From a bacterium (GTDB lineage Bacteria > Patescibacteriota > Patescibacteriia > 2-12-FULL-60-25): a stretch of 64,000 bases of DNA. This document shows positions 15,894-53,690 of the stretch, piece after piece. Below the pieces are notes generated by a model. That model worked only from the letters and a program-made list of their open reading frames with translations. It was not told the DNA's origin and did not search any database. The position numbers and the translations under genes were made by a program. Each line of letters opens with the position of its first letter. Position 1 is the first letter of the stretch. The stretch spans positions 750,625-814,624 of the forward strand of contig JAJYXM010000016.1 in assembly GCA_021796435.1 (NCBI GenBank), read 5' to 3'.

Positions 15894-15955
15894 GTCATCC
15901 CGGGCTTAGACCCGGGATCTTTGCTCCAGAGCCCCGACTAGTTGGCCGGGATGAC
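15894..15955. repeat. Palindromic repeat copy 1 (GTCATCCCGG family)
   Basis: It starts GTCATCCCGGGCTTAGACCC and ends GGCCGGGATGAC, with two stem units. It begins 4 bases after the M23 gene stop and covers the last codons and stop of dusB, which is read on the other strand. See the related copies at 19493, 45900, 51971 and 52962. Confidence 0.9.
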
Positions 15956-19492: not shown

Positions 19493-19553
19493 GTCATCCC
19501 GGGCGCAGACCCGGGACCTCGCTCCCGGATCCCGGCTCGTTGGCCGGGATGAC
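19493..19553. repeat. Palindromic repeat copy 2 (GTCATCCCGG family)
   Basis: GTCATCCCGGGCGCAGACCC...GGCCGGGATGAC lies between the divergent DUF5671 and uvrB genes, upstream of both. It is open in several frames, so it creates false N-terminal extensions on both genes. Confidence 0.9.
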
Positions 19554-26717: not shown

Positions 26718-26789
26718 AGTCCACGAGAGGGCGGAAGCCCTTTCGTGGGAGGAGCAAGGCGACGATGGAGAGCCCCACCCCCGGAGCCA
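26718..26789 (+). repeat. 72-base repeat, copy A, ending in a tRNA-Asn-like 3' end
   Basis: The 5' part is a strong hairpin (CCACGAGAGGGC / GCCCTTTCGTGG, loop GGAA). The last 20 bases (26770-26789, GAGCCCCACCCCCGGAGCCA) equal the 3' end of the tRNA-Asn gene. Almost the same 72 bases recur at 28724-28795. An extra hairpin (GGGAACC / GGTTCCC, loop GGAA) lies just upstream, and the stretch starting TGGGGGCTC near 26663 could pair with the GAGCCCCA near the end. The unit is followed by a terminator, so it may be transcribed. Confidence 0.75.
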
Positions 26790-28723: not shown

Positions 28724-28795
28724 AGTCCACGAGAGGGCGGAAGCCCTTTCGTGGGAGGAGCAAGGCGACGATGGAGCGCCCCACCCCCGGAGCCA
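28724..28795 (+). repeat. 72-base repeat, copy B, ending in a tRNA-Asn-like 3' end
   Basis: It matches copy A (26718-26789) almost base for base. The only clear change is GCGCCCC instead of GAGCCCC near the end. It has the same GGAA-loop hairpin and the same final CCCCACCCCCGGAGCCA. A terminator follows at 28805. With the tRNA-Asn end and copy A, it makes three directly repeated tRNA 3' ends within 2.2 kb. Confidence 0.75.
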
Positions 28796-31895: not shown

Positions 31896-32318
31896 ATGGC
31901 AGATACCACGAAGATAAAGCTTTACGGTCGAGTCGGCAGGGGAGGTGGTAGACTGCTCGACATGATCCAAAAAGCTTTCGACGACACCCTCGGTCAAGTC
32001 TACCTCGAATCCCATCAATCCCGTCTACAGAACGGGGAGCCCGGGGTGGAGACGGCTAGTCTGATCGTCTACGGCAACGGCGAGAGCACCCTGCAGTTCT
32101 ACCTCGTGACCGACGACAGAACGAAACTGATCTACGTATCCATCCTCGGGGAACTCAGTGGCCCCAGTGGCGACAAGATCCAGCGCTTCCTGTGTGACGT
32201 CGACGACGTGACCACCCTCTCACCGTCCATGGAACGCTCTCCAGGCCCTCACGCCTTCGCCGAGTACCTGGAGGAGCCCTACACCATCCCTCGGAACGGA
32301 CCTTTCGCCGTCAGGTGA
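31896..32318 (+). CDS. Hypothetical protein, paralog of the 35.4 kb gene
   Basis: The start is set at the ATG at 31896, with GGAAGGAG 8 bases upstream. The 140-residue protein shares its whole layout with the protein at 35394-35822: KLYGRVGRGGGRLLDMIQKAFDDTLGQVY, GNGESTLQFYLVTDD, ISILGEL-like, PGPHAFAEYLEE, and the identical ending YTIPRNGPFAVR. No family is recognised. It has its own terminator. The near-identical 3' DNA of the two genes suggests a recent duplication or gene conversion at that end. Confidence 0.7.
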   Translation: MADTTKIKLYGRVGRGGGRLLDMIQKAFDDTLGQVYLESHQSRLQNGEPGVETASLIVYGNGESTLQFYLVTDDRTKLIYVSILGELSGPSGDKIQRFLCDVDDVTTLSPSMERSPGPHAFAEYLEEPYTIPRNGPFAVR

Positions 32319-35393: not shown

Positions 35394-35822
35394 ATGGATA
35401 GCGCGAAGACCGTGAGACTATATCGTCGCGTGGGCAAGGAGGGTTCGTCCCTGGTTGTCTCGATGCATAAGACGCTCGAGAGGATGTTGGGACAAGTCTT
35501 CCACGAGTACCATCGTTCCGGAGGACAAAGCGGCGACCTGGGGCAGGAAGTCGCCAACCTGACCCTCTACAGCGACGGCGAGAGCACCCTGCAGCTCTAT
35601 GTCGTGAGTGACGACAACACGAACGGCTTCTCCATCTGCATATCCGTCATCGGAGAGCTCAGGGGCGCCCAAGGCGAGGAGGCGATGAGCTTCCTGCGGG
35701 CTTGCGATCTGGTATCAAGCCACTCGTCCTTCAAGGAGCGCACTCCGGGCTTCCACGCCTTCGCCGATTACCTGGAGGAGCTCTACACCATCCCTCGGAA
35801 CGGACCTTTCGCCGTCAGGTGA
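35394..35822 (+). CDS. Hypothetical protein, paralog of the 31.9 kb gene
   Basis: The 142-residue protein begins MDSAKTVRLYRRVGKEGSSLVVSM and shares with the 31896 gene the blocks LxRxVGxxGxxL, LGQVxxE, DGESTLQLYVVSDD, GELRG and the identical C-terminus YTIPRNGPFAVR. The last 40 or so bases are also nearly identical in DNA. Soluble, no family recognised. The two copies flank the GTG-start gene and the ABC permease/ATPase operon, which may hint at a shared role. It has its own promoter and hairpin. Confidence 0.7.
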   Translation: MDSAKTVRLYRRVGKEGSSLVVSMHKTLERMLGQVFHEYHRSGGQSGDLGQEVANLTLYSDGESTLQLYVVSDDNTNGFSICISVIGELRGAQGEEAMSFLRACDLVSSHSSFKERTPGFHAFADYLEELYTIPRNGPFAVR

Positions 35823-45869: not shown

Positions 45870-45899
45870 GCCGTCAGTTTATTCCAGCATCTAGCTCCT

Positions 45900-45962
45900 G
45901 TCATCCCGGGCTTGACCCGGGATCTCGGGGCCTAGAGATCCCGGCTCGTAAGCCGGGATGAC
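45900..45962. repeat. Palindromic repeat copy 3 (GTCATCCCGG family)
   Basis: GTCATCCCGGGCTTGACCCG...CCCGGCTCGTAAGCCGGGATGAC. It lies between the start of the HD gene and the stop of the ABC-F gene, both on the minus strand. Confidence 0.9.
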
Positions 45963-51916: not shown

Positions 51917-51970
51917 CCTAGGTTTATCGTCTTGGCACTTCTTTGTCATCCCGACCATTTTTTTCCTAAT

Positions 51971-52336
51971 GTCATCCCGGCCAAGCGGAGCGCGAGCCGG
52001 GATCTAAATAGACGCAGCTAAATCATTCCAGTCGGGGTTCTCTTTTTCGATTAACTCGAACTTCCACCTTCTGCGCCATCTTTTTAATTGCTTTTCTCGA
52101 GAAATTGCTGATAGTACATCTTCTACAACCTCGTAATAAACAAGTTTAGTTAGTTGATATTTTTCAGTGAAACCAAGAACAATTTTGTTTTTATGTTCCC
52201 AAATACGACGCGCTAAATCGTTTGTCACACCCGTATAAAGCACGCCGCGTTTAGTGTTGGTTAGGATATATACGTAATACTGACGCATATATAATCGCTA
52301 ACATGGGTTGAGATCCCGGGTCAAGCCCGGGATGAC
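51971..52336. mobile_element. Palindromic repeat split by a GIY-YIG gene
   Basis: The left half (51971-52005) begins GTCATCCCGGCCAAGCGGAG and ends AGCCGGGATCT. The right half (52311-52336) is GATCCCGGGTCAAGCCCGGGATGAC with one leading A. The left half is identical to that of the unsplit copy at 52962-53030, and the right half is near-identical. Between the halves is a complete GIY-YIG gene whose stop codon uses the last two bases of the left half. The whole 366 bases look like one mobile unit, with the unsplit copies as short derivatives. A further fragment, TGTCATCCCGACC, lies at 51943. Confidence 0.75.
52004..52288 (-). CDS. GIY-YIG nuclease domain protein
   Basis: A 94-residue single-domain nuclease of the UPF0213/YhbQ-like type. 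Seen: YYVYILTNTKRGVLYTGVTNDLARRIWEHKN (GIY-YIG as YVY...YTG, then the catalytic Arg), the conserved Tyr/Glu in KLVYYEVVEDVLSAISREKQLKRW and the basic RRRWKFELIE end. Such domains make single- or double-strand DNA cuts. The gene fills the middle of a palindromic repeat and ends inside its left half, so it may be the enzyme that moves or maintains the repeat. Confidence 0.92.
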   Translation of the reverse strand: MRQYYVYILTNTKRGVLYTGVTNDLARRIWEHKNKIVLGFTEKYQLTKLVYYEVVEDVLSAISREKQLKRWRRRWKFELIEKENPDWNDLAASI

Positions 52337-52400
52337 AAAAAAGAGATCTGGATCGACCGTGGGTAGGTTGGGCGTCAGATTGTGATTTCCTTCTTATGGA

Positions 52401-53690
52401 CTACACAATAGCCGACTCCCCCGCCAATCTCCCGGTCGCCCAAGCGGATTGCAGATTGAAACCGCCAGTAAAACCGTCGATATCCAAGATCTCCCCGGCC
52501 AGAAAAAGGCCGGGGCAGATTTTTGATTGCATGGTCGAAGGATCGACTTCTTTCAGGTCAACGCCTCCGGCCGTGACGAATTCTTCTCCGGCGGCGCGTG
52601 CGACGGCGTGAAGCACCAACCCCTTCATCGTCTGCGCCAAGCGTTCTGCGTTCTTTTTGCTGCAATCGGCAGCGATCGAATCAGGATTCAGACCAGCAGA
52701 CAGGCAAAGTCGAGGAGCCAGAGATTTGAGCACCAAGGCGCCGATGACGTTACCCAAGCTCTTTTTCGGGTATTTGGTCACATGGAACCAAATACTGTCG
52801 AGAACATCAGCCAGTTTGCGATCAGGGAAGAAATCAATGGAGATGGTGAGCGGCTTTTCCGGCGAAAGCGATTCGAAAGCGACGAGGGATGATAAGGCAA
52901 AGACTGCGGGGCCGCTGATGCCTTTGTGAGTGAAGATGAACGGGCCCTCAACTCTTTTAATGTCATCCCGGCCAAGCGGAGCGCGAGCCGGGATCTGGGA
53001 ATGAGATCCCGGGTCTGCGCCCGGGATGACAAAAAGTACGGCTTTTTCGACGGAAACGCCGGCCAGATCCGCAACCCATTTTTCTTGCGTGAAAAGCGCG
53101 CTCAAGCTCGGCGCGAGCGAGGTGATGGAATGGCCAAGAGATTGGGCAAAAGCATAGCCATCACCGGTAGAACCGGTCTGACGATAGGCTTGTCCGCCAG
53201 TAGTCAGGATGACTTTATCTACGAGCAGGGGAGAATCCTGGTTTTTCAGGGATATGGCGAATCCGTCCTTGTTTTTTTGGACTTGCGTGACTTGTTTCTT
53301 CAACATGACGCGGACGCCGGCTGTCTTGAAAATATTTTTGAAGACATCCATCACATCTTGACCTTCATTCGAGACAGGGAAGACCCGCAGATCCTTTTCG
53401 ACCTTAAGCGGTACGCCATGATCCTCGAACCAGGCATATACAGCTTCCGGAGGGAACTTGTGCATGGCTTTGGTCAGGAATTTGTTGCCTCTAGGATATC
53501 TGGAAAGCACGGTACGGATATCGCGTAAACCTGTCGTCAGATTGCATCGTCCGCCGCCCGAGATGAGCACCTTCTTACCCAAAATATCGTTACGCTCCAG
53601 AATAAGGATTTCGGCGCTCGGGTCTGTTTCATATGCGGCAGCCGCAGCCATGATTCCAGCTGCACCGCCTCCGATGATGGCGATTTTCAT
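52401..53690 (-). CDS. BaiN/HI0933-type flavoprotein with in-frame repeat insertion
   Basis: A NAD(P)/FAD-dependent oxidoreductase of the YhiN/HI0933 family. Seen: MKIAIIGGGAAGIMAA (FAD-binding), KKVLISGGGRCNLTT, ILTTGGQAYRQTGSTGDGYAFA, and the C-terminal GLFLAGEILDIDGFTGGFNLQSAWATGRLAG. The biological substrate is unknown. Residues 221-243 (VIPGADPGSHSQIPARAPLG and RDD) are encoded exactly by the 69-base palindromic repeat at 52962-53030, between LAGVSVEKAVLF and IKRVEGPFIFTHKGISGPAV. The frame stays open on both sides. Confidence 0.93.
   Translation of the reverse strand: MKIAIIGGGAAGIMAAAAAYETDPSAEILILERNDILGKKVLISGGGRCNLTTGLRDIRTVLSRYPRGNKFLTKAMHKFPPEAVYAWFEDHGVPLKVEKDLRVFPVSNEGQDVMDVFKNIFKTAGVRVMLKKQVTQVQKNKDGFAISLKNQDSPLLVDKVILTTGGQAYRQTGSTGDGYAFAQSLGHSITSLAPSLSALFTQEKWVADLAGVSVEKAVLFVIPGADPGSHSQIPARAPLGRDDIKRVEGPFIFTHKGISGPAVFALSSLVAFESLSPEKPLTISIDFFPDRKLADVLDSIWFHVTKYPKKSLGNVIGALVLKSLAPRLCLSAGLNPDSIAADCSKKNAERLAQTMKGLVLHAVARAAGEEFVTAGGVDLKEVDPSTMQSKICPGLFLAGEILDIDGFTGGFNLQSAWATGRLAGESAIV
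52962..53030. repeat. Palindromic repeat copy inside a protein gene
   Basis: A complete 69-base copy: the left unit GTCATCCCGGCCAAGCGGAG..., the spacer GGGAAT, and the right unit GAGATCCCGGGTCTGCGCCCGGGATGAC. It equals 23 codons and keeps the flavoprotein frame intact. Confidence 0.92.

Follow-up and report, generated by a model that had tools for sequence, protein, structure and literature searches.

Since the description of the Rickettsia elements it has been known that palindromes can lie in frame within protein genes, and few bacterial repeats are as common as the CGTC-tagged REPs. The Rickettsia palindromic elements (RPE-1 and others) are found in frame in unrelated protein genes, as are the repeats described here; RPE-1 is longer than the element of the present study and unrelated to it in sequence, and we know of no nuclease gene described within elements of this kind. 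GIY-YIG enzymes are classic homing endonucleases. Those that are free-standing or intronic, as well as small proteins of the COG2827 type, consist of a single GIY-YIG domain with conserved Y, R, H and E residues, and this is likewise the case for the gene product described below, the difference being that its gene lies inside inverted REP hairpins and not within an intron or next to one homing site. Among open-licence papers, nothing relevant was found that links GIY-YIG with palindromes, REPs or RAYT.

REPs of the CGTC superfamily possess a T/CGTC tag, a stem of 8-9 bp that begins with AT, a loop of 4-5 nt and a CCA tail, and are arranged as head-to-head dimers (PMC3733652). The superfamily includes dRS3 of Neisseria (CGTC-1) and both RPE-6 (CGTC-1) and RPE-4 (CGTC-4) of R. 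conorii (Di Nocera et al. 2013, PMC3733652). Dimers lying in frame within genes, those of error-prone polymerases among them, have already been described, and no associated transposase has been reported for these REPs; GTAG REPs are tied to RAYTs (PMC3733652). The GTAG REPs and REPINs with a RAYT resemble the present system in being non-autonomous palindromic pairs accompanied by one gene that is flanked by those palindromes. However, the enzyme found here is of the GIY-YIG type and not an HUH/Y1 tyrosine enzyme, the tag is different and the unit is only about 375 bp long.

The window analysed, meaning the whole stretch of 64,000 nucleotides taken from contig JAJYXM010000016.1, belongs to a patescibacterial genome of 1.63 Mb in 28 contigs (G000). 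A repeat of 69 bases, said by a sequence-only reading to form exactly 23 codons of a flavoprotein gene in frame and with no stop created, was confirmed at bases 52962-53030. These correspond exactly to codons 221-243 (VIPGADPGSHSQIPARAPLGRDD) of an intact ORF of 429 codons, running on the minus strand from GTC (53030) to GAC (52962), while the whole palindromic element is 71 bp in length, TGTC...GACA (Table 1). As single-stranded DNA, this element was calculated to fold with -27.6 kcal/mol (DNA folding; z=-7.0 against shuffles). A chance palindrome was ruled out by this fold and by the approximately 20 related copies and halves found in the same genome. Other repeats seen in the window were direct copies of 72 nt, 2 kb apart with 99% identity (26718-26789 and 28724-28795, D2), and direct copies of 189 nt with 75% identity (32130-32318 and 35634-35822, D1), the latter perhaps being a gene duplication.

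Table 1. Coordinates of the REP elements described and of the genes associated with them.
Feature	Position	Strand	Remarks
Type-A REP dimer (L015)	15894..15955	-	Intergenic; orthologous site with type-B dimer in G002, nothing in G001
Type-A REP dimer (L004)	19493..19553	-	Just upstream of another gene
Type-A REP dimer (L014)	45899..45962	-	Intergenic
REP-GIY-YIG-REP unit, 368 bp, candidate autonomous element	51970..52337	.	REP half, ORF, inverted REP half
Left REP half of unit	51970..52005	+	Family D8; hairpin z -2.95
Predicted GIY-YIG endonuclease gene, 94 aa	52004..52288	-	Stop codon overlaps REP tail; PF01541 E=5.9e-16 (Pfam)
Right REP half of unit, inverted	52310..52337	+	I4; hairpin z -5.4
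HI0933/BaiN-like flavoprotein gene (TIGR00275, PF03486 + PF22780), 429 aa, intact	52401..53690	-	Profile matches
Solo type-A CGTC REP head-to-head dimer	52961..53031	-	In frame in flavoprotein gene
Left REP half of solo dimer, TGTCATCCCGGCCAAGCGGAGCGCGAGCCGGGATCT	52961..52996	+	Same as left half of GIY-YIG unit
Linker of solo dimer, 6 bases, GGGAAT	52997..53002	+	Place taken by GIY-YIG ORF in full unit
Right REP half of solo dimer, GAGATCCCGGGTCTGCGCCCGGGATGACA, inverted	53003..53031	+	

Repeats were counted genome-wide from similarity searches and retrieved stretches. Seven other copies in G000 matched across all 69 bases (E 4e-16 to 3e-4), along with about a dozen clear halves and partial copies. 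These repeats, designated type A, are dispersed as head-to-head dimers, with 8 full dimers plus halves present in the genome. Their ends consist of a terminal TGTC tag followed by a stem starting in AT (TGTCATCCCGG at both ends), and the stem is of 8 bp in both halves. In the GIY-YIG unit, the loop of the right half measures 5 nt, while the interior of the left half is of 10 nt and contains a mini-stem, many other copies being short-looped. Judged by this layout, the 69-base element consists of two CGTC-tagged REPs joined head to head. Type A shares with the CGTC REPs of Di Nocera et al. (2013) the T/CGTC tag, the AT-starting stem, the head-to-head dimers and the occurrence of in-frame copies, but differs from them in the longer loop of its left half (about 14 nt versus 4-5) and in a tail of CT(A) instead of CCA. 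Furthermore, none of the described CGTC REPs is reported with a transposase, whereas a GIY-YIG gene was found inside dimers here. The parallel to Rickettsia palindromic elements drawn in the sequence-only reading was right and is closer than was thought there, although the repeat, called a different one in that reading, is not unrelated to those of Rickettsia, its layout being that of the superfamily of RPE-4 and RPE-6. As in-frame copies had already been described for CGTC REPs, the flavoprotein insertion is itself not new in kind. The new part is the REP-enclosed GIY-YIG gene some 600 bp away, which that reading did not contain and which is more informative than the insertion.

Matches to TIGR00275 (E=8.5e-118) and PF03486 (E=1.4e-80) across the whole of the interrupted protein agree with its earlier assignment as a BaiN/HI0933-type enzyme, which was found to be encoded in 19 of 38 related genomes. 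In an alignment of 19 sequences, most orthologs of the same family possessed a loop 19 residues shorter at the position of the insert, with 12 near orthologs being without it, and no counterpart was found in the solved homologs PDB 2i0z and 4cnj, showing residues 221-243 to be extra as had been proposed. An AlphaFold2 model built with this alignment had a mean pLDDT of 89.8, with residues 228-241 of the insert, which is flanked by strands 213-221 and 245-253, falling below 50. The earlier reading placed the repeat correctly between two conserved segments, and the 23-codon insert is predicted to be a disordered hairpin loop. Outside the loop, dN was 0.049 and dS 0.98 between the species of the window and its congener G001 (dN/dS approximately 0.05), indicating that the flavoprotein is under purifying selection and that the insert is tolerated.

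Comparison with two congeners, G001 (86% identical) and G002 (73%), revealed that the same flavoprotein loop is filled to near-equal length in both (429, 427 aa). An ortholog with an equal-length segment at this place had been regarded beforehand as evidence against an insertion, and such segments are literally present here. However, what fills the loop there is a palindrome of another kind, designated type B (TGTCATCCTGAGCG...AAGGATCT...AAGGTCCTTCG...CAGGACGACA) and translated in a different frame (CHPERNEV...), which signifies repeated use of one site and leaves the insertion standing. With partial copies counted, type A gave about 20 clear matches in G000, while G001 yielded 13 and G002 a single one; type-B matches numbered 14 in G001 and 27 in G002, with only a trivial one in G000.

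Three further type-A elements of G000 were found in frame within recognisable genes. One is in the gene of an O-antigen ligase/glycosyltransferase protein (802 aa), where type A is also found in G001, while G002 has half of a third type. Another is in that of a DinB-type polymerase (461 aa), with type A in G001 and an unrelated GTAGGGGCGAGGC / GTAGGGGCGAGGCATGCCTCGCCCCTAC palindrome in G002 (L179), and the last is in that of a glycosyltransferase (440 aa), where G001 has an intact dimer of the dRS3-like type D and G000 has type A nested inside D. At all four in-gene sites compared, one or more of the sister species carries a different palindrome or an extra one. Outside genes, three different REP types were identified at one intergenic site in the three species, and at a further one half of type A in G000 is matched by type B in G001. 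A dimer of G001 (L184; ortholog of G000:C1:1206330-1206392, L019) is chimeric, with a left half of the dRS3-like type D and a right half of type A. Among 14 type-A loci for which G001 or G002 has an ortholog, and among 12 type-B loci, no clean empty site with target duplication was found, the flanks being mostly too diverged or another repeat being in place. The presence of different palindromes at the same sites may reflect an exchange of REP types inside existing elements.

The left half of the solo dimer and that of the neighbouring GIY-YIG unit have 100% identity over 39 bases (51967-52005 at the unit, D8). The fragment TTTGTCATCCCGACC at 51942-51955, just outside the unit, is perhaps a decayed REP half. 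In the encoded protein, the GIY-YIG catalytic positions Y7, Y18, R28, H32 and E65 were invariant among 14 members. Small GIY-YIG genes of G000 and its relatives were found in two contexts, one being between inverted palindrome halves, each gene with its own type, and the other in or beside tRNA genes. Regarding the former, G001, with its 14 type-B matches, has a type-B unit (L097), and G000, with type A, has a type-A unit. No type-B unit was detected in G002 despite the 27 type-B matches there, nor a type-A unit in G001 despite the presence of type A, from which it follows that a master copy is not always present now. At the intergenic place where G000 has its GIY-YIG unit, a type-B solo element is found in G001; conversely, the flanks of the type-B unit of G001 are conserved in G000 but enclose 442 bp of other sequence, so that this place does not serve as a clean empty site either.

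The second context comprises loci L084, L087, L088, L089 and L090 of G000 and L095, L100, L101, L102, L104, L105, L115 and L119 of related genomes. A tRNA was identified with ARAGORN in all 13 of these loci, in several of which the 3' part of the tRNA recurs as a partial copy at the opposite end of the GIY-YIG gene. These look like cases of homing into tRNA genes with restoration of the 3' end.

A contig scan with a profile of 4 sequences gave 80 loci of the GIY-YIG subfamily, a set biased towards that subfamily because this four-sequence subset was used. By their record titles, the loci belong to Proteobacteria, Chloroflexi, Omnitrophota, Nitrospirae, Bacteroidetes, Planctomycetes, Spirochaetes, Patescibacteria and others. 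For the 77 of the 80 with enough flank, the upstream flank was compared with the reverse complement of the downstream flank. Flanking inverted repeats (score >=14) were found at 57 of the 77 loci, compared to 0 of 393 windows shifted within those loci, with about a quarter of the 77 having none at this score. A canonical REP hairpin with its tag outward was present on both sides at 39/77 loci and in 0/393 shifted windows, the canonical CCA tail being found at most loci of other phyla. When flanks were bounded by ORFs, REPs on both sides were identified for 23 of 71 GIY-YIG genes and, as a control, for 3 of 215 other genes in these loci (p=8e-13). Incidental proximity of GIY-YIG genes and REPs was rejected on the basis of these shifted-window and neighbouring-gene controls. 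The distance from the GIY-YIG stop codon to the REP stem had a median of 14.5 nt, and the length of the unit from outer tag to outer tag a median of 375 bp (IQR 361-421, range 345-605 bp, n=41 loci). In each of 12 such genomes the REP pattern of the unit occurred 3-197 times, with 0 occurrences in the reversed control.

This association was also investigated at the level of whole genomes, using 116 genomes spread over the phylum, among which the GIY-YIG profile scores split into a high and a lower group. Presence of the subfamily was defined as a best E <=1e-22, a cut set after the list had been seen, and the threshold was put at 5 or more CGTC REPs to keep a single unit from producing the result through its own REPs. 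This number was reached by 16 of the 35 genomes with the subfamily and still by 8 of the 81 without it (p=3e-5, a value that ignores the relatedness of the genomes).

Taken from sequence comparison, the GIY-YIG nuclease is probably the mobiliser of CGTC REPs, its action on the REPs and the repair route being the conjectural parts. The 69-base repeat would be a non-autonomous dimer with outward tags and a short linker that landed in the flavoprotein loop, and the full element would be a dimer with the linker replaced by the small GIY-YIG gene, as in the neighbouring unit. The solo dimer may have been retained because, being divisible by three in length and open in the frame read, it lengthened a surface hairpin and did nothing more. 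The enzyme would recognise and then nick or cut REP hairpins or REP-like targets, with repair from another REP copy spreading solo dimers. As all REP types share GTCAT...ATGAC ends, landing would favour places where a palindrome is already present, and such a preference would explain both the chimeric dimers and the finding of different REP types at one and the same site in sister species.

If selection had favoured the added 23 residues for what they do in the enzyme, the maintenance of reading frame and gene in three species with inserts would be accounted for; this is considered extremely improbable, as the inserts of different species are unrelated in sequence and frame, the insert is of low confidence in the structure model and REPs also strike unrelated genes. 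It is less easily dismissed, though somewhat unlikely, that the differing palindromes are independent insertions into a few tolerated places without any exchange, given that the in-gene sites all seem to be loops or linkers, the flavoprotein insert being a disordered one, and that selection alone could concentrate the survivors. Speaking against this are the different or extra palindromes present in sister species at all four of the in-gene sites compared; the nested A-in-D copy and the chimeric D and A dimer point to events inside an existing element.

The main alternative to a mobiliser is that the GIY-YIG gene is a homing endonuclease parasite of REPs, which cuts dimers and copies itself into the linker while the REPs themselves owe their spread to something else, which would make the solo repeat of the flavoprotein gene a target and not a product. 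The known role of GIY-YIG enzymes in homing and the location of the ORF exactly between two dimer halves are in its favour, and the related genes in or beside tRNA genes, whose duplicated 3' part implies a conserved multi-copy target, fit it equally well. Yet it gives no cause for the spread of REPs, the same-site exchange or the REP enrichment, even though a genome richer in REPs would likewise offer more targets, and it is regarded as unlikely. Movement of REPs in trans by a RAYT or by a Y1 transposase of the IS200/IS605 type, with the GIY-YIG gene nearby by coincidence, has a precedent in the GTAG REPs tied to RAYTs (PMC3733652), and Y1_Tnp fragments were identified in G000 and G002. Every Y1_Tnp match was partial, though, and most were at contig ends; G001 carries type A and type B elements with no Y1_Tnp match, the tag found here is TGTC, no transposase association is reported for CGTC REPs (PMC3733652), and the controls described above argue against coincidence. 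This explanation is therefore held to be very improbable.

Whether a mobilising role for the nuclease extends to CGTC REPs in general, the relatives of dRS3 and of RPE-4 and RPE-6 included, is evenly balanced; these would then be the non-autonomous partners of widespread REP-GIY-YIG-REP units of approximately 375 bp, with the GIY-YIG enzyme driving both insertion and type exchange, also at in-frame sites. The 2013 survey left open what moves CGTC REPs, and the finding of a REP-enclosed nuclease makes this question a direct biochemical test. If same-site exchange of palindromes within genes does take place, it would explain how proteins gain and swap linker peptides without loss of function.
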